From Rhodospirillaceae bacterium (GTDB taxonomy: Bacteria; Pseudomonadota; Alphaproteobacteria; Rhodospirillales; JABHCV01): 64,000 bases of DNA. A program made the translations under genes and the position numbers. The stretch lies in contig JABJHA010000004.1 of assembly GCA_018662005.1 (NCBI GenBank), forward strand, positions 310,001 to 374,000, given 5' to 3'. Position 1 is the first letter of the stretch; each line of letters starts with the position of its first letter. The notes beneath the pieces were generated by a model, which was given only the letters and a program-made list of their open reading frames with translations, was not told where the DNA came from and made no database searches. Shown in pieces: positions 11,886-22,319 of this stretch.

Positions 11886-13202
11886 TTAAGAGTGAGACAA
11901 ATCGACCATGCGCATACGCCCCAAAACACCGTTTGCGATGGAATCTACAATCTGAATTGGAAAGCCTTCCGGCATTGCGGCGCGGGTTCTATCCAATGCT
12001 CCAGCCATATCCCGTTGAAGCTCTAAGAAGGTTGCTTCAACAACAGCATCGGCGAGGCCGCATCGCGTGGCCGTTTGCTGAAAGTGACGCGGTGCGATTT
12101 CACCAACCCGGTAATGTCGGCTATTTCCAACCGCCATTGCCAACTTCATTTTGTTTTGCGTAATCTGGTGTCTATCGACATTCAACTGGGCCGACATAAC
12201 GTCATACAGGGGCGTTAATCGGAATCCGCCGCCTGGGTGGATGAAAATGCTAAAGTTTTTGGCGTGTCCATCGGTCGCGCCGAGCAACCAGTTAATTACC
12301 TGCGCCTTGAAGAAAAGCTTGCGGTCGTCATCAGGCGTATCGCTGGCTTTCAACAGCTCAAGAATTTGTCCAATTCCTGGACCGCCATCTTGTTCATATT
12401 TACCCGTGGGTGAAACGGACAATGCCTGGCAGCAATCCTCTTGCGGCAGGCGTAACAGGCGTTCTCCACCGTTTGCCCAGCGGCGGTCGAAACGTTTCAG
12501 AGAAAGCACACGTACATCTTCGAATTCAATGATTGCCGAGTTCGTAACAGGCAGACCAAGTTCGCCAAGCAGGCGCAGGCAAAAGTGTTCATTTTCTACG
12601 CTCTGGCTTAGGTCGATACCGTTTTCTAGTTTGCCGATCTGCGGCTTGAGAATGTGGGTCGTCGCTGTTGTACCGTGGGGAATGTGCCAGCGGCCTTCGT
12701 GATACAGGAGCGCGGTTTTCTCCTGAGCCCCGGCGATTGAGATACGGAATTCTTCATCTTCGTCTATGCCGAGCGGCGCGTGTGCAAGGTTCCTAATGAT
12801 CCGTGCTATTTCAGCTTCTTCGACTGGACGACCCGTGAGTGCACCAGCCGCTTCCGGCTCGTGACCCTGAGGAATAAATTGCAATGCGCCAACGCAATCA
12901 CGCCCTATCGCAGAGAGCAGACTGAAAGCGTCCTGCCCGGTGGCTCGCGCTTTCTCAGCCAGGCGTCGGCGAATGGTTTCGTTATCTGGTAACAAGTTAT
13001 CGAACACAGCCATCACAGGCTCGCCGATGTAACGGTCTTCGCGTAGCGGCAGCGATAATGAAACAGGCATGGTATGTTCCCATGTCAGCCATGATGCCTC
13101 ATAGCGGAAGTCGATTGCGCCTGAGGGTTCTCTGTTCAGTTGACCAACGAGGCGAGCGTTGAGGAAAATATTGAGCGGCGCATATGCGCGACGGCGACCC
13201 AT
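11886..13202 (-). CDS. hipA: HipA-type kinase toxin (second locus)
   Basis: 438 residues, closer to classical E. coli-type HipA than the copy at 2301. The phospho-acceptor loop reads ISIAGAQEKTALL, the kinase core NWLLGATDGHAKNFSIF and the metal site RLTPLYDVM. The N-terminal subdomain (LVGQLNREPSGAIDFRYEASW) is intact. The predicted action is phosphorylation of an aminoacyl-tRNA synthetase. Its start abuts the hipB stop (TAATG overlap), so the pair is coupled. It sits between the relaxase operon and oriT. Confidence 0.92.
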   Translation of the reverse strand: MGRRRAYAPLNIFLNARLVGQLNREPSGAIDFRYEASWLTWEHTMPVSLSLPLREDRYIGEPVMAVFDNLLPDNETIRRRLAEKARATGQDAFSLLSAIGRDCVGALQFIPQGHEPEAAGALTGRPVEEAEIARIIRNLAHAPLGIDEDEEFRISIAGAQEKTALLYHEGRWHIPHGTTATTHILKPQIGKLENGIDLSQSVENEHFCLRLLGELGLPVTNSAIIEFEDVRVLSLKRFDRRWANGGERLLRLPQEDCCQALSVSPTGKYEQDGGPGIGQILELLKASDTPDDDRKLFFKAQVINWLLGATDGHAKNFSIFIHPGGGFRLTPLYDVMSAQLNVDRHQITQNKMKLAMAVGNSRHYRVGEIAPRHFQQTATRCGLADAVVEATFLELQRDMAGALDRTRAAMPEGFPIQIVDSIANGVLGRMRMVDLSHS

Positions 13203-13453
13203 TAAAATATATCCTCAATATCTTTTGCGCTTGTTTGCGACCGTGGGCGAATAATCAGTTCCAAACCCAAGGCGGAAAGGATATCGAACAGTGTGCTTAA
13301 CTTGACGCCGCCCTCTCCAGCCTCCAGGGCTGAAACGGTTGGCTGGCGCAGGCCGGCTCTTGCGCTGACGTCTCGCTGGGTTAAGCCCAGGGACTTGCGC
13401 CGGCGGCGGATTGCATCGCCAGTCTGTTTTGCGGTACGCGCTGTATTTTCCAT
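13202..13453 (-). CDS. hipB: HipB antitoxin (second locus)
   Basis: 83 residues from ATG at 13453. The XRE helix-turn-helix spans RRRKSLGLTQRDVSARAGLR and QPTVSALEAG, followed by LSTLFDILSALGLELIIRP, the dimerising tail of HipB. The open frame extends further upstream but that part runs through the operator repeats and is not protein-like. GAGAGGAT lies upstream of the chosen ATG on the coding strand. It should bind the three palindromes at 13480-13551. Confidence 0.88.
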   Translation of the reverse strand: MENTARTAKQTGDAIRRRRKSLGLTQRDVSARAGLRQPTVSALEAGEGGVKLSTLFDILSALGLELIIRPRSQTSAKDIEDIF

Positions 13454-13479
13454 CAATAGAATCCTCTCTCTTTTTTCAA

Positions 13480-13551
13480 TATACGTTACAGCGTATAAAA
13501 ACACAATATACGCTGTAACGTATAAACCACACTTATACGCTACGGCGTATA
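13480..13551. promoter_or_regulatory. Triple HipB operator, TATACG-N6-CGTATA
   Basis: Three 18-bp palindromes of the form TATACG-N6-CGTATA occur at 13480-13497, 13507-13524 and 13534-13551. The arms are perfect in all three and the start-to-start distance is exactly 27 bp. The centres are TTACAG, CTGTAA (its complement) and CTACGG. They lie 27 bases upstream of the hipB2 start. Cooperative binding of HipB dimers here is a firm expectation from the family. Confidence 0.85.
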
Positions 13552-13680
13552 TTGTGTGCGTTGGAACAGTGGCGTTCGTGATGTTGAGGCGATCACCCTT
13601 CACAATCTTAGAGAAATGACCCGTTGAGCACCGAAGGCTGCGAATAAGGCTTCGCCCATCTGGCAAACAGGGTGGCGAAC

Positions 13681-13910
13681 AGGATTGAAGTGGCGGCGCT
13701 TTCGCAGAAAGTGGGCCACTTCTACTATCCTGCCACTCTTACGACAGGGAAAGTTGTGTGTTTTCGGTTCTTTTTATGTGTAATCGGTTTATTTCGGTTG
13801 AGATCCGTTCTTCTCTGTTGTTTTCGAATTATTCTGTCATTTCAAACGGTTATTCATTGTTGCTTTCGGTTATTTTCCGTTACAATCGGTTTAACTCGGT
13901 TGTTTTAGTT
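13681..13910 (+). other. oriT: IncP-type oriT with nic site and phased repeats
   Basis: An inverted repeat (AGGAT-T-GAAGTGG at 13681-13693 against CCACTTC-TACT-ATCCT at 13716-13731) precedes TATCCTGCC at 13726-13734. This matches the IncP nic consensus YATCCTG/Y, with the expected nick after G13732. To the right, TCGGTT-like hexamers recur on a 10-bp grid: 13764, 13784, 13794, 13804, 13814, 13824, then 13846, 13856, 13866, 13876, 13886 and 13896. This is where RP4 has its curved TraK-binding region. A TraK-like gene starts at 13926. No protein is encoded here. Confidence 0.85.
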
Positions 13911-13925
13911 GTGGAAGATTAAGTC

Positions 13926-14267
13926 ATGGCGCGTTGGGGACAGGCAAGGGTCGAAGTCTTGGCACTTCGTCAGGAAATCAAGGATGAGCTGGTCAGGGGC
14001 GTGCCTGTTAAACAGGTCTATGACATGTTTGTAAAGCGTGGCCATATCACGGTCACCTACAATGGTTTCAGGCGACAGGTTCAACCCATTCGCGACGACC
14101 TGCGACGCGCCCCCATTGAGATTTCTGCATCTTCCAAGATATTGGCGAATGCACCGATCGAGACACCGGCATCACCCCTTCCCTCAGAGCGTCCAGAACT
14201 GGTTAAAGGAAAGCCCAAGAAGGGGTTCGCGTTTAATCCCGTCAGTAAGGCAGAAGATTTTTTCTAA
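13926..14267 (+). CDS. traK: TraK-like oriT-binding protein
   Basis: 113 residues, basic. The core EIKDELVRGVPVKQVYDMFV and YNGFRRQVQPI resembles the small TraK proteins of IncP transfer systems (a helix, then W/Y-x-x-F-R recognition). They wrap the oriT region to expose nic. A proline/alanine-rich linker leads to KPKKGFAFNP at the end. It sits directly beside the phased hexamer array, as in RP4, but the other tra genes are 2.5 kb away behind hipBA2. The stretch 14268-14442 holds no gene. Confidence 0.78.
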   Translation: MARWGQARVEVLALRQEIKDELVRGVPVKQVYDMFVKRGHITVTYNGFRRQVQPIRDDLRRAPIEISASSKILANAPIETPASPLPSERPELVKGKPKKGFAFNPVSKAEDFF

Positions 14268-14442
14268 AGGAAAAGCTGTCTGACGTCAGCGCCTTGACCG
14301 GGCAGAGCCGACCATGCACGAACGCAATGCCAACCCGACTAGCATCAAACAAAATGGGTTAGGATATCTCTTAATCAGGGCAGTAACTGACCCAAATATT
14401 CCGACGCCGGACACGAATTATTATTATGAAAACATTTAAGTC

Positions 14443-15096
14443 ATGAGCTTGATAAAATCTAAGGAACGCGTCGCCGATCATGGAGAGGTGTTCACTCCTC
14501 CGTGGCTAGTCGAAGCAATGCTCAACCTCGTTAAGGATGAAGCCGAGCGCATCGACTCCCGATTCCTGGAGCCTGCGTGCGGCAGTGGGAACTTCCTTAT
14601 CCCGATTTTACAGCGGAAGCTTGCTGCAGTCGAACTCAAGTTTGGAAAGGCGGATTTTGAAAAGCGGCACTACGCTCTTCTCGCTCTGATGTGTATCTAC
14701 GGAATCGAGCTGCTGGCAGACAACATTGAAGAGTGCAATTCGAACCTAATTGAAATTTTTGCCGGGTATATGAGCCTAGATAAATCAGATGACTTGTATA
14801 ACGCGGCATCTCATGTGCTGTCCCACAACCTCGTACATGGTGATGCGCTGACGATGAGAACGCATGACGGCCAGCCGATTGCTTTTGCCGAGTGGGGCTA
14901 CATCGGCAAGGGCAAGTTCCAGCGCCGCGACTTTCGCTTTGACGTCCTCACCGGATCATCGGCCTTCAGCGCTGAGGGGTCTCTCTTTGCCCATCTTGGC
15001 AAACACGAAATCTTCAAGCCGATCCAGACCTACCCGCCGATGACGGTTCGCGAACTGGCCGCCGTTCGCGGAGACACACCGAAGGAGGCAGTATGA
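14443..15096 (+). CDS. N6-adenine DNA methylase subunit (SAM-binding half)
   Basis: 217 residues. It has EVFTPPWLVEAML and the SAM-binding motif FLEPACGSGNFL, both typical of type I/Eco57I-like methylases. The catalytic NPPY motif, expected after FDVL, is absent; the text there is FDVLTGSSAFSAEG. It overlaps the next gene by four bases (ATGA), whose product supplies an NPPY motif. The two probably act together in modification. It belongs to a three-gene restriction-modification operon. Confidence 0.8.
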   Translation: MSLIKSKERVADHGEVFTPPWLVEAMLNLVKDEAERIDSRFLEPACGSGNFLIPILQRKLAAVELKFGKADFEKRHYALLALMCIYGIELLADNIEECNSNLIEIFAGYMSLDKSDDLYNAASHVLSHNLVHGDALTMRTHDGQPIAFAEWGYIGKGKFQRRDFRFDVLTGSSAFSAEGSLFAHLGKHEIFKPIQTYPPMTVRELAAVRGDTPKEAV

Positions 15097-16676
15097 GCAT
15101 GCAGACTGGCTTTACCTTGCGCGGGCGCAACCCGGATGTGTTGACATGCATCGCGAATCTCTCGAACGACGAGGTGTTCACACCACCTGAGCTTGCAAAC
15201 CGCATGCTAGACACGCTGGCCGATGCATGGGCGGCTGATCACAACGGCGCCAATCTCTGGGCCGACAAGTCGGTGAGGTTCCTCGACCCGTTCACGAAGT
15301 CGGGCGTTTTCCTTCGAGAGATCACCGACCGCCTCACCGAGGGACTGGCCGATGAGATTCCGAACCTTGAGAAGCGCATCGACCACATTCTGACCAAGCA
15401 GGTTTTCGGCATCGGCATCACATACCTCACCAGCCTATTGGCGCGGCGCAGCGTGTATTGCTCGAAGCACGCCAACGGCGAGCATTCGATCGCAAAAAGT
15501 TTTGACAGCGAAGCTGGCAACATTTGGTTCGAGCGCACCGAACACTCATGGGGGAACGGCAAGTGCAAGTATTGCGGAGCAAGCCAGAAAGCGCTCGATC
15601 GGGGCGAAGGGCTAGAAACCCACGCCTATGCTTTCATTCACACCGACGATATCAAGACTCGGGTCGCCGAGTTGTTTGGAGACGACATGCAATTTGACGT
15701 GATCATCGGCAATCCGCCATACCAACTCGGCTCCGACGGGGGCACCAGGGATGTTCCAATTTACCAGCGCTTTGTTGATCAAGCAAAAATGCTGCAGCCG
15801 CGATACCTAGCAATGGTCATTCCTTCGAGGTGGATGGCCTCGGGCCTCGGACTCAACGAGTTTCGCAAGACAATGCTTGGGGATCGTCGCATACGTGAAC
15901 TTGCCGATTTTCCGGCAGCAAGCGATGTATTTCCGGGTGTCGAGGTAAAAGCGGGGGTCTGCTATTTCCTTTGGGACGCCGTGCACGATGGCGATTGTAT
16001 GGTGACTACGGTACGTAGCGGGGATGTTATTGGGCCAGTTTCAAGAAACCTCGCTGAATACGATGTGTTTGTTCGAGACGCCGGTTCCATCTCGATCCTA
16101 CACAAAGTCCTGAATGGCGGCGAGCCATCTATCAACACGATCCTCGCGCGTGACAAGGAGTTTGGCTGGACCTCGAACTTCGATGGATTTCACGAAAAGG
16201 AACGTCCTGGAGACTTGCCTCTATACTACATTAGGAAGATGAAGCGTGGCGTCGGCCATATTGCTCGCGAAGAAGTAACCAAAAGCAAACGGCTGGTCGA
16301 CACATGGAAGGTACTAGTCCCGCAAGCGTTCAATGGAGGTGACGCGGTTCCTCATCAAATTTTGGGTAAGCCGCTGATCGCACCATTGCCATCAGTCTGC
16401 ACCCAATCATTCTTGTTCTTTTACGTTGACTCGCGCGATGCCACAAAGAGCCTTCAATCATACTATACAACACGGTTTTTCCGCTTTCTTGTCTCGCTGC
16501 GCAAAATTACTCAACACGCAACTCACTCTACTTACGCTTGGGTGCCAGCCCAAACATGGGATCGTATTTGGACAGACGAAGAACTTTACGCGAAGTATGG
16601 TATAACGCCGGAGGAGCAAGAATATATCGAGTCTCAGGTCAGGGTTATGAACCTTGATGATGCTATCAATGAGTAA
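15093..16676 (+). CDS. Eco57I-type restriction-modification methylase
   Basis: 527 residues. It has EVFTPPELANRML, a variant SAM motif FLDPFTKSGVFL (KSG in place of GSG), and a catalytic FDVIIGNPPYQL near residue 205. The C-terminal part may recognise DNA. It also has a possible zinc site CKYCGASQKALD. It should methylate adenine in the target sequence. The stop overlaps the start of the helicase/nuclease gene by eight bases. Confidence 0.85.
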   Translation: MSMQTGFTLRGRNPDVLTCIANLSNDEVFTPPELANRMLDTLADAWAADHNGANLWADKSVRFLDPFTKSGVFLREITDRLTEGLADEIPNLEKRIDHILTKQVFGIGITYLTSLLARRSVYCSKHANGEHSIAKSFDSEAGNIWFERTEHSWGNGKCKYCGASQKALDRGEGLETHAYAFIHTDDIKTRVAELFGDDMQFDVIIGNPPYQLGSDGGTRDVPIYQRFVDQAKMLQPRYLAMVIPSRWMASGLGLNEFRKTMLGDRRIRELADFPAASDVFPGVEVKAGVCYFLWDAVHDGDCMVTTVRSGDVIGPVSRNLAEYDVFVRDAGSISILHKVLNGGEPSINTILARDKEFGWTSNFDGFHEKERPGDLPLYYIRKMKRGVGHIAREEVTKSKRLVDTWKVLVPQAFNGGDAVPHQILGKPLIAPLPSVCTQSFLFFYVDSRDATKSLQSYYTTRFFRFLVSLRKITQHATHSTYAWVPAQTWDRIWTDEELYAKYGITPEEQEYIESQVRVMNLDDAINE

Positions 16677-19296
16677 GCACACTATCGAGGACATCCTAGC
16701 GCCAAAGCCGCAAGCCCGGCCACGCATCTACGCATACTCGATTGCAGATGAAGCTCACGCTGGTCTACTCAAGGTCGGGCAAACGACCCGCGACGTAAAG
16801 CAACGCGTCGCCGAGCAGCTAAAGACCGCCGCCATCAAGAACTATCGCATTGAGTTGGACGAACCCGCCGAGAGCGACGACGGTACAATCTTCAGCGATC
16901 ACGAGGTACGTGCGGCGCTCGTCAAAAAAGGTTTTGAGAACACCGAGCTGGAGTGGATGCGCTGCACGCTCAGCGATATGAAGACCGTGCTCACCGAGCT
17001 GCGGACGGGTCAAATGTTTACCGGTACGCATCACCAGACCTTCCCGACGCGCCGAGAGCAGGCCGAAGCGGTGAACGTGACACACGCCTATTTCCACTCT
17101 CGCTGGGCGGAGGATATGCACGCTGTCCCGCGTTTCCTGTGGAACGCAAAGATGCGTTTTGGTAAGACCTTCACCACCTACCAACTCGCCAAGAAGCTCG
17201 GCGCCAAGCGTGTGCTCGTGGTGACCTTCAAACCCGCTGTGGAGGATGCTTGGCAGACGGACCTTGAGGGCCACGTGGACTTCGACGGTTGGCAGTACCT
17301 GTCGAAGTCCTCCGGTGGCGACCCGACACAGATCGACGGCAGGAAGCCGGTGGTCTATTTCGGTTCCTTCCAGGACCTATTGGGTCGTGACGCAGCAGGG
17401 AACATCAAACCCAAGAATGAATGGCTCCACCAGGTGAATTGGGACCTCGTGGTGTTCGATGAATATCATTTTGGCGCGTGGCGAGAGACCGCAAAGGAGC
17501 TTTTTGAAGGGGAGGAGGAGGCGGTTTCCAAGAAAGAAGCCAAGCTTGAATACGCCGCTGGGCTGGCTGTCAGAATAACGTGATTGTTTCATGTTGAATC
17601 TCCTCAAAAAACATTACGAGAAAATTCTACTCATTTGTACCGCTAAAAATTGGGAGCATTACCCGAGGACCTCACCGTCCTGTCTCAGAAGGAGACAGAG
17701 TTCCTCCCCATCACCACCAAGGCCTACCTCTATCTCTCAGGCACGCCGTTCAAGGCGCTGGCCACCGGCGAGTTCATCGAGGAGCAGTTATTTAACTGGA
17801 CGTATACCGACGAGCAGCGCGCCAAAGAAGAGTTTGCCACCAAACACCCCGGCAAGTGGAACCCCTACGGTGCGATGCCGCAGATGCGGCTTCTGACGTA
17901 CCAAATGCCAGATGAGCTGGTGACGGTCGCGAGCGCTGGTGAGTTCGACGAGTTTGACCTCAACGAGTTCTTTGCGGCAAGCGGCACAGGCAACGCCGCG
18001 CAGTTTAAGCACAAGAGCGACGTACAAAAGTGGCTGGACATCATCCGAGGCCAGTACGGACCAAAGACCGTCGAGAGCCTCAAGACAGGCACGCGGCCCC
18101 CGTTCCCGTATTCAGACGTGCGCTTGTTGCCTTACCTGCAGCACTCGTTCTGGTTCTTGCCCAATGTCGCGGCCTGCCACGCGATGGCAAATCTACTGGC
18201 TGAAAAGCACAACACTTTCTGGCACGAATACGAGGTTGTCATAGCTGCCGGTGCGTCGGCGGGGATCGGGCTCAACGCGCTGCCGCCGGTACGTAAGGCG
18301 ATTGGGAGCGGGTTCCAAAACAAGACAATCACGCTGTCGTGTGGCAAACTAACCACTGGCGTCACTGTGCAGCAGTGGTCTTCCATCCTGATGCTGCGCA
18401 ACCTGAAGTCGCCGGAGACCTACTTCCAAGCTGCGTTTCGCGTTCAATCCCCCTGGTCCATAAAAAACCCGAATGGTGATAACCCGAACGAAGAAGAAAT
18501 CCTCAAACCCGTCTGCTTCGTGTTCGACTTCGCGCCCACGCGCGCGCTGCGGCAACTCTCTGAGTATGGGATCGGCCTATCGCCCAATGAGCCGAACCCG
18601 GAGAATGCGGTTAAGGACCTTGTATCATTTCTGCCGGTGCTGGCTTACGACGGCGCGAACATGACCCAGATCGATGCAGGTGGCATTCTAGATATAGCCA
18701 TGGCGGGTACCTCGGCCACGCTGTTGGCGCGCAAGTGGGAGAGTGCGCTGCTGGTGAACGTGGACAACGATACACTGCGCCGGATCATGGGTAATCCTGA
18801 GGCGATGGCCGCCGTGGAGCGCATAGAGGGCTGGCGCACATTGGGCGACCATGTCATCGAGACCATCATCAACAAGAGCGAGAAAGTCAAAGAACTCAAG
18901 AAAAAAGCCAAGGAGAATGAACTGACAGGGAGGGAGAAAAAGGAACTCACGGTCGAGGAAAAGGAGTACAAGTCCAAGCGAAAGCTCGTGCAGGAGAAGC
19001 TGGTCAAGTTCGCGACGCGTATCCCGGCGTTCATGTACCTGACCGACTTCCGCGAGAACACGCTTCAGGATGTGATAACAAAACTGGAGCCGGATCTGTT
19101 CTTGGCCGTAACGGGCCTTTCAGTGGAGGACTTTCACCTGCTTGTTAGGATGAGGGTGTTCAACACTGAGCAGATGAACCAGGCAGTTTTCGCCTTCCGT
19201 CGCTATGAGGACGCTTCGCTTCGCTACACCGGAGTTGAGAGCCACACTGGCCTGAGCCATTACGGGCTCTACGACACAGTGGTGGCGAGAGAGTGA
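16669..19296 (+). pseudogene. GIY-YIG / DEAD helicase restriction enzyme, interrupted
   Basis: The first part (16669-17583) opens with a GIY-YIG-like domain (RIYAYSIADEAHAGLLKVGQ, then TTRDVKQRV) and helicase motifs AKMRFGKTF (Walker A) and VVFDEYHFG (DEYH box). The second part (17650-19296) has YLYLSGTPFKAL (motif III) and a helicase C domain. Both parts are in the same frame, separated by TGA at 17581 and TAA at 17644 within an AT-rich patch. The protein would have about 875 residues. As written the enzyme is dead unless the two parts associate. Confidence 0.8.
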
Positions 19297-20523: not shown

Positions 20524-20943
20524 AACGCTTACCCGGCGCGTATATGAGGAATTACTCAGCTCTGCAGATCGCTCCGTCTGGGCTAGCACATATGCATTTT
20601 TTGACGGACCAAAAGCATTTGAAGTGCTGGCGCGGCGCATGGACGCGACACCCAGCCTACGGGTTACCCTGCTACTGAATATTCAGCGCAAGAGGGGCGA
20701 TACCACCGCCGCCGAGCACCTTGTGCGCAAGTTTGCGGATCGATTTTGGGCTAAGGACTGGCCAGGATCATCACGGCCAAATGTCTACTACGACCCTCGA
20801 GCGCTCGAGACTGAGGGTCCCGCGGGCGTCCTGCATGCCAAGGCCATCGTCGTCGATGACGAGGTTGTTTTCGTGACCTCAGCGAACCTAACCGAGGCCG
20901 CCCTCGACCGCAACATCGAGATAGGACTTCTTATACATAGCGT
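20524..20943 (+). pseudogene. DrmC-like phospholipase D-fold protein, truncated
   Basis: The frame, open from about 20524 without a start codon, reads VYEELLSSADRSVWASTYAF, FDGPKAFEVLARRMD, later VYYDPRALE and LHAKAIVVDDEVVFVTSANL. HAK...SAN is the HxK PLD signature. The layout matches the second half of DrmC, a PLD protein of DISARM defence loci that also occurs alone. The N-terminal half is absent and the C-terminus is cut by the IS110 element. It is a relic in a defence-rich stretch. Confidence 0.7.
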
Positions 20944-22319
20944 AATTCCGGTGGTCACCCTCCCGAGCCTATAATGCGGGGTCGCAGATCAGCGCCCCAA
21001 AGGGCTAAACAGGAGAGTGACCATGGCAGAGTATGTTGGATTTGACGTATCGAAGGAAGAGACGAGTTTTTGCGTAATGGACGAGGCCGGCAAGATATTG
21101 GGGCAAGGCAAGGCATTGAGCGATCCGGAGGCTTTGTTTGCAATGCTCAAAGAGCACACGCTTTGCCCTGAGCGGATAGTTCTTGAGACGGGCACCCTTT
21201 CCAATTGGCTGGCCCGCGGCTTACATGAATATGGATTGCCCGTGGACGTGATCGATGCCCGCCAGGCCCATGCGGTGATGAAGCTTCAGCACAACAAAAC
21301 GGACGCCAATGACGCTATTTTGTTGGCTGAGATCGCGCGGACGGGTTTTTGCCGTTCGGTGGCGGTGAGCAGTGAAGCGGCGCAGGAGCACCGGATTTTG
21401 ATCAAGGCGCGGAAACTTCTAGTCTCTCAGCGCACTGCCACACAGAACGCGATCCGTGGTTTTCTGAGTTCTCTCGGTCTGCGTTTTCCGAAGGGGTCGG
21501 GCAAGCTTGGGGAACGGGTCCTCACGGTATTGACAGCACGGCCTGATTTGTCACCACTGATCGAACCGCTGTTGTCGAGTGCCGAGAACCTAGCCCAGGA
21601 GATCGCGCGTTTTGATCAGGAAATCAAGGCGCGTGCCGGAGAGATGGTGGCCTGCCGCCTGCTGATGACGGTTCCGGGGATTGCGCACAATACCGCTCTG
21701 GCCTTCGTGGCGACCATTGACGAACCCTCGCGGTTCACCGACTCACGCGCGGTGGGTGCCTATCTGGGCCTGACCTCGCGGCGCTATCAGTCCGGGGAGA
21801 TGGACTATACGGGACGGATATCAAAGAACGGCGACGGCCTGTTACGCAGTCTTCTTTATGAAGCGGCTAACGTTCTTTTGACCGTTGTCCGCAAGTCCCA
21901 TCCGATCAAGGATTGGGCACGGCGTATTCGCAAACGCAGCTCTCACAAGAAAGCCTGCGTGGCGTTGGCGCGTAAACTGGCGGTAATCATGCACCGGATG
22001 CTGATCACCGGTGAAACGTTCCGCTGGCCTGAGATGGAGGCGATAGCTTAAAAGGGAAAAAAACGACAACCGGTTCCGTAAAGTAAAGTCACGGAACCTT
22101 CGTCCCCAACCGGGACGATGGCCAAGGCGATCCCGCCCCGCTGGTTGCAAGCCGGACAGAAAACCGTCCGCCATTGCGTCTAATACATTGGGAGGCCAAA
22201 GCCAAAGGGCACTATGATGAAGCATCCGGCCCAACCGCCGGAAACGACTTCGGAGACAACCGTGTTCCCGGTGAAGGATAAAAGAAGGGTTTAGGAGCTT
22301 GACTGCTGAGCCGGAATTA
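20943..22319. mobile_element. IS110-family element
   Basis: Approximate limits. The DrmC homology stops at about 20943, and TAATTCCGG at 20943-20951 is matched inverted by CCGGAATTA at 22311-22319. The transposase fills 21023-22051; the 268 bases behind it are typical of the long non-coding 3' flank that encodes guide (bridge) RNA in this family, although I cannot fold it here. IS110 elements make no clear target duplication. Confidence 0.55.
21023..22051 (+). CDS. IS110-family transposase
   Basis: 342 residues. The DEDD RuvC-like half has GFDVSKEETSF, VLETGTLSNWL and NKTDANDAILLAEI. The C-terminal half has PGIAHNTALAFVATI and the serine region TSRRYQSGEMDYTGRISKNG. AGGAGAG precedes the ATG. 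The gene is intact and may be active. It interrupts the DrmC-like gene. Confidence 0.92.
   Translation: MAEYVGFDVSKEETSFCVMDEAGKILGQGKALSDPEALFAMLKEHTLCPERIVLETGTLSNWLARGLHEYGLPVDVIDARQAHAVMKLQHNKTDANDAILLAEIARTGFCRSVAVSSEAAQEHRILIKARKLLVSQRTATQNAIRGFLSSLGLRFPKGSGKLGERVLTVLTARPDLSPLIEPLLSSAENLAQEIARFDQEIKARAGEMVACRLLMTVPGIAHNTALAFVATIDEPSRFTDSRAVGAYLGLTSRRYQSGEMDYTGRISKNGDGLLRSLLYEAANVLLTVVRKSHPIKDWARRIRKRSSHKKACVALARKLAVIMHRMLITGETFRWPEMEAIA

Follow-up and report, generated by a model that had tools for sequence, protein, structure and literature searches.

A DrdVI-type split-methylase operon of a Rhodospirillaceae bacterium whose restriction gene is broken by an IS3-family end

The stretch of 64,000 nt analysed here (called the window; positions 310,001 to 374,000 of contig JABJHA010000004.1, Rhodospirillaceae bacterium assembly GCA_018662005.1) carries an operon of three genes: M1 and M2, which encode a methylase divided over two proteins, and R, which encodes the restriction subunit. 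We consider it probable, at about 85%, that this is a DrdVI-type operon in which the end of an IS3-family insertion sequence (IS) has broken R, that restriction has been lost, and that the pair of M1 and M2 still methylates adenine. The three genes had been proposed in a first-pass annotation of the sequence, and reading of the open reading frames and motifs found them where they had been placed (Table 1).

By DNA similarity the same order M1-M2-R was found on plasmids of Sphingopyxis, Rhizobium, Acuticoccus, and Deinococcus (pDrdVI). The window M1 is 68–77% identical to its four plasmid relatives and M2 57–66%; for pDrdVI the respective values are 71% and 57%. The genes of DrdVI have been cloned and expressed, and M1-2.DrdVI modifies GCAGCC, forming N6-methyladenine (PMC6430315). 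This system of Deinococcus wulumuqiensis 479, listed as Type IIG, shares with the window the gene order, the sizes, the motif division and the domains of R, but the window R is broken by the IS end and the overall identity of M2 is 57%. A second characterised system, MaeIV of Methanococcus aeolicus (M1-M2, GCACY), is described in the accessible part of PMC10113651 as a split methylase like DrdVI, and its M1-M2 clone methylates; MaeIV is archaeal, and its likeness to the window is one of published description. In the window M1, M2 and an R with GIY-YIG and helicase parts adjoin, and R is broken yet recognisable. The complete R that characterises a DrdVI/MaeIV split-methylase restriction–modification system was not found in the window. 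Consequently, the operon is a member of the DrdVI/MaeIV type by descent, without a working restriction system, and the locus is a decayed member of an already known kind of system. The genome holds a single M2 and a single match to the 3' part of R.

Table 1. Features of the operon (positions in the window).
Feature	Position	Strand	Description
M1	14443..15096	+	217 aa; SAM (S-adenosylmethionine)-binding half-methyltransferase
M2	15093..16676	+	527 aa; Eco57I-type methyltransferase, C-terminal recognition region
R, 5' part	16669..17583	+	GIY-YIG-type domain, Walker A (RFGKTFT), DEYH; TGA end inside patch
IS3-family remnant, terminal 101 bp	17563..17663	-	outer end 17663; first orfA codons on minus strand
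R, 3' part	17664..19296	+	remaining helicase from SGTPF, then C-terminal region; separated from the R start

The frame of R starts at ATG 16669, is interrupted by TGA at 17581–17583 and TAA at 17644–17646, and is otherwise open to 19296, all in one frame. Frame reading confirmed that R is disrupted while M1 and M2 stay open. As for the earlier description of R as a GIY-YIG/helicase fusion, the helicase part holds, with a Pfam match to ResIII in the 5' part; the GIY-YIG-type match is weak in the window (MUG113, E 0.038, below the Pfam cut-off). Among five R proteins of relatives that were scanned, ResIII exceeded its Pfam cut-off in all five and T5orf172 in three. Aligned with four intact R proteins, the window R has 29 extra codons. 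The patch responsible spans 101 bp, not about 70 bases as first estimated, and has a G+C content of 36.6% compared with 57.2% and 58.6% in the 500-bp flanks. All of its 101 bases recur identically, beyond what chance would give, at eight other places in the same genome, each within about 40 bases of a contig end. Similar DNA is present in 439 plasmid records; of the 20 rows shown, 15 are annotated as IS3 family transposase, one as transposase and one as another product, and three are unannotated. The patch carries the start of orfA, as in an IS3-family element. Its right junction, at 17663, coincides exactly with the outer end of the other copies; on the left, at a short shared CTG/CTGG, the gene meets a point 101 bp within the element. 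These matches identify the patch as the remnant end of an IS3-family element that also occurs elsewhere in this genome. A full copy of the IS was not found, a 140-base query matching only contig ends and the window, and the three places of the genome with HTH_Tnp_1 lie elsewhere than the IS-end matches.

The lesion would have arisen in two steps. First, an IS3-family element would have inserted in R with its outer end at 17663; second, a later deletion, at the CTG/CTGG microhomology, would have fused R to an internal IS position 101 bp from the outer end, removing the remaining IS and about 14 bp of R and leaving two IS-borne stops in frame. The net gain is 87 bp, corresponding to the loss of about 14 bp of R, and the frame was kept by chance (one in three). 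The earlier suggestion that foreign DNA had replaced part of R in frame, without a frameshift, thus proved correct, 101 bp of an IS3-family end having replaced about 14 bp. No close sister dates the lesion, because the 3' part of R was found in none of 59 other related genomes and the IS end in none of 6 others. Taken by itself, the lesion represents the ordinary decay of a restriction gene. A comparable case is the fragmented DrdVI-like system of Bibersteinia trehalosi (Btr188ORF1790/ORF1760), in which, according to the available part of PMC4996451, R is truncated in three of four strains; there the truncation is due to a frameshift, not an IS, and the methylase is fragmented as well.

R would now give only a truncated protein without a complete helicase, and restriction has therefore very probably been lost. 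Modification has probably been kept, as judged from the clones of relatives and from the full length of M1 and M2. We considered the alternative that the whole operon is decaying and that M1 and M2 are nonfunctional passengers too. R is broken, and only a fragment of the nearby DrmC gene is present, next to an IS110-family transposase, which would fit such a general decay; M1 and M2, however, are of full length, align end to end with their relatives and keep the SAM and NPPY motifs of the family, so that we regard this alternative as unlikely.

Several further points weigh against an operon that has lost restriction and kept modification. The 3' part of R might restart at TTG 17650 and the two R pieces might associate, and M1 and M2 may be silent. 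The dispensability of R for methylation is known from the clones of relatives only, and the inserts of these clones only as 'M1-M2' and 'MTase genes'. Finally, the assembly consists of 53 contigs with the eight other IS copies at contig ends, and the junction in R rests on the assembler. A contig misjoined through the repeat could have hidden a full-length IS3 element or, in part of the population, an intact R. The position of the eight other copies, no more than about 40 bases from contig ends, does indicate that the repeat stops the assembler. Nevertheless, the left flank joins a point 101 bp inside the IS and not the IS end, which should have needed reads over the junction, the right junction equals the outer end of the other copies, and both flanks match homologues. 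An assembly artefact is therefore regarded as quite improbable.

The methylase motifs are divided between M1 and M2. M1 has motif X (GEVFTP), motif I (FLEPACGSGNF), motif II (YGIE) and motif III (GDA) and lacks NPPY, with FAEW in its place; M2 has an altered motif I (FLDPFTKSGVFL), GNPPY and a non-acidic motif II. This division had been put forward as a peculiarity of the locus. A scan of species genomes with the M2 alignment, of which the best 80 of at least 571 confirmed encoding stretches were kept, and a viral scan, which gave 39 loci, provided relatives for comparison. In a first set, made up of the 80 genome loci, the four plasmids and the window, all 84 M2 sequences without a gap at motif I have K-S/T-G there, one of 85 having been set aside, and motif I of M1 keeps both glycines in 77 of 77 (three of 80 set aside). 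A wider, thinned alignment was then used, with 69 rows for M2 (the window, 67 of 110 listed rows, and one fragment, L025) and 64 rows for M1 (the window and 63 rows drawn from a list of 99 and from one other set). K69 of M2, the lysine replacing the first glycine of motif I, and NPP are present in 69 of 69 rows, and the motif II position is occupied by G, A, P or S and is acidic in none. In M1, G47, G49 and the acid in motif II were found in 64 of 64 rows and NPP[YFWH] in none of the 64; the place of NPPY is taken by W151 in all rows, preceded by E150 in 62. As far as these alignments go, the division is invariant and a rule of the family in the relatives examined, which leaves the notion of a local peculiarity unsupported.

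Split methylases of this kind are widespread, the at least 571 confirmed stretches coming from one collection of species genomes. Because the motif loss is strictly reciprocal in the rows examined, they provide a natural setting in which to study how a single reaction arises from two incomplete methyltransferases. Separately, C19, C123, H151, C158, C161, and H183 are invariant in all 69 M2 rows, which suggests that the insertion separating motifs II and IV holds a metal site.

The structures of M1 and M2 were predicted singly, as separate chains. The AlphaFold2 model of M1 (predicted local distance difference test, pLDDT, 88.3) has four main strands corresponding to b1–b4 and a hairpin predicted to sit beside b4; the later strands of the methyltransferase fold are missing. 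Its best structural match is the N-terminal part of CamA (7lt5; Z 12.5, root-mean-square deviation (rmsd) 2.9, 127 residues), and a sequence search of solved structures gave two weak matches. M1 is thus modelled as a SAM loop within half a fold. M2, which matches Eco57I in Pfam (PF07669, E 1e-32) and gave no match in the sequence search of solved structures, is modelled (pLDDT 87.7) as a complete methyltransferase with a recognition part, that is, a whole fold with an altered SAM loop. CamA is its best match too (Z 22.5, rmsd 4.3, 409 residues), and comparison with LlaGI (5ffj) gave Z 20.5 and rmsd 6.7. The single chain of CamA holds both motifs. M1 and M2 share homology in their N-terminal parts (hhalign probability 97.2%, E 3.5e-11, 56 columns), and for this reason an ancient duplication followed by reciprocal loss appears to be the simplest history of the two genes.

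A separate M1 frame was found in 116 of the 123 loci having M2 (window included). Six of the seven loci without M1 start at or near a contig start (L024, L025, L030, L078, L080, and L102); at the remaining one, L133, no M1 was found at the threshold used despite 5 kb upstream. The 80 genome loci and the 39 viral ones showed no natural M1-M2 fusion. The M1 profile does match within M2 frames, with scores of up to 35.6 bits; these matches reflect the shared N-terminus, not fusions, and were excluded from the count. Since the M2 start overlaps the M1 stop (ATGA), we considered whether programmed frameshifting at the overlap could make M1 and M2 as one protein, in which the motifs would be undivided. 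The four-base overlap spacing of the window recurs in 53 of 116 pairs (window included), and 101 pairs lie within 30 nt. The other spacings vary, however, 11 of the 116 pairs being more than 100 nt and up to 2,295 nt apart, and in more distant relatives M1 is separate while the NPPY piece is fused to R. With distances of this size, programmed frameshifting was rejected as hardly credible.

The more distant relatives were found by tblastn with an intact R, which gave 78 plasmid records; 13 of these were inspected beyond the four plasmids above. The motif table excludes a Corynebacterium record, which has R but neither M1 nor M2 annotated, and so covers 12. The DrdVI layout is found in Variovorax and Mycolicibacterium. 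In Treponema, Lactiplantibacillus, Arthrobacter and Bifidobacterium a KSG-type piece is situated at the C-terminus of R and the NPPY piece is a gene of its own, 334–344 aa long in three intact versions and carrying IS256 inside in Bifidobacterium. In Enterococcus, Paenisporosarcina, Lactococcus, Pediococcus, Lysinibacillus and Loigolactobacillus R, KSG and NPPY form one chain. The SAM loop of the KSG-type piece reads K-S/T-G in 11 of the 12 and T-A-G in Arthrobacter; the canonical G-x-G was found in none of the 12. A separate M1-like gene is present in 11, the upstream region of Treponema lying beyond the record end. These genes have G-x-G in seven cases (two read by eye) and EITCGEAPY/F in four, the latter with weak M1-profile scores (E 4e-12 to 4e-6); NPPY was found in none of the 11. 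Taken together, these records indicate that the NPPY and KSG pieces move between genes or fuse to R and that M1 is separate wherever it was seen. We found no description of the reciprocal motif loss and the shifting break points in the open literature examined, REBASE and subscription papers lying outside it.

The NPPY/recognition piece was also observed alone, without a SAM motif, in Tenacibaculum phage PTm1 (L139:4001-5035; 344 aa) and in L142:3992-5029. In the whole PTm1 record no convincing M1 was found (best E 0.12), and such NPPY-only phage genes might borrow the M1 of the host.

How would the two proteins methylate? M1 and M2 would act as a pair: site recognition and the holding of the target adenine at NPPY would fall to M2, and M1 would be a SAM-bound partner unable to catalyse by itself. 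Either the chemistry takes place in the altered pocket of M2 with M1 as activator, or the two proteins share an active site. We lean slightly to the former, because the M1 hairpin makes simple strand-swapping into M2 look awkward and because a KSG loop so strictly conserved argues for a pocket that is altered yet functional. A remark citing a personal communication mentions 'split DNA methyltransferases' with two or three subunits (PMC4335053, as far as the text was available); their methylase is divided over subunits as in the window, a likeness at the level of description. The same source, speaking of split methyltransferases in general, notes evidence that one subunit can be partly active, which points toward chemistry in M2 and against a strictly obligate pair; as it may concern another family, it leaves our slight lean unchanged.

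A more speculative scheme, which we hold to be doubtful, is one active site made from interchangeable pieces, in which M1, a SAM-loading subunit that would have lost its catalytic motif, supplies the methyl donor, and the catalytic motif comes from a different polypeptide, an NPPY/recognition piece with a SAM loop remodelled to KSG. Where the NPPY piece is a separate gene, as in Lactiplantibacillus, Treponema, Arthrobacter, and Bifidobacterium, it could then join either M1, for methylation, or the KSG-type piece that ends R, for restriction, and the choice of partner would be a switch between modification and restriction. DrdVI-type systems also allow one to ask how a separable recognition piece serves methylase and nuclease alike.

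The state of R was surveyed in 122 other loci (80 genome, 38 of the 39 viral, and 4 plasmid loci). In 92 of them a single frame of R stays open over most of its length; contig ends cut most of the others. Six were sorted as broken: L089, L126, and L128 only run off the contig end, L035 carries a stop in frame, and L071 and L077 have frameshifts. Four have no R in reach, namely L095, with a full M2, and L130, L132, and L135, with a truncated M2. The remaining 20 are too close to a contig end, including L038, interrupted by an IS3-family end, L049, with only the start of R, and L112, in which no R was found. That R is naturally two proteins with a spacer at the point of the patch is the least credible alternative of all: both parts do lie in one frame free of other stops, but the homologues surveyed did not show R as two genes with the same gap, R being a single frame in 92 of 122 loci, and the spacer is IS DNA.

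In L038 (Mycolicibacter kumamotonensis DSM 45093) a different IS3-family end interrupts R at the homologous codon (L038:8537-8618); two IS3 events at one place in an R of 850 codons are only a suggestion of an insertion hot spot. L082:7544-11054 contains one M1-M2 pair followed by two tandem R genes. L095 has M1 and a full M2 and no R found within 6 kb downstream, and is possibly an orphan split methylase. L156 (Corynebacterium crudilactis pCRULAC2) has a full-length R, adjoining IS1133 and aminoglycoside-resistance genes, and no annotated M1 or M2 in the stretch seen.

The operon was also compared with other classes of restriction–modification systems. Type ISP enzymes such as LlaGI are single chains of nuclease, helicase and methylase; no such chain was found in the window, although the M2 fold resembles the methylase part of LlaGI. 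Type III systems have one Mod protein with both the SAM and the catalytic motifs, and no such protein was found in the window. With EcoP15I (Type III, Mod2Res) the window shares, according to the accessible part of PMC4490356, a helicase–nuclease subunit and a division of labour between two methylase subunits; the EcoP15I subunits are two copies of one Mod protein, unlike M1 and M2. CamA of Clostridioides difficile, the best structural match of both models, is described in the available part of PMC8187626 as a solo adenine methyltransferase, an orphan; unlike the window operon it is one chain and has no R. A single chain joining nuclease, methylase and specificity, as in Type IIG, was not found in the window, and the distant relatives fuse R to the NPPY piece yet keep M1 apart. 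Other Type IIG-like multi-protein systems are mentioned in the accessible part of PMC4752239.

Downstream of the operon a DrmC-like (DISARM) phospholipase-D gene fragment (20525-20974) lies beside an IS110-family transposase gene (21017-22051) and is a second broken defence gene beside the operon. Upstream, a gene for a HipA-like kinase and a helix-turn-helix partner form a hipBA-type pair (11886-13450). A contig filed under a Phycisphaerales metagenome-assembled genome (L037:1-3027) is 100% identical to 13224-16250 of the window and represents either the same population or a mis-binned contig.

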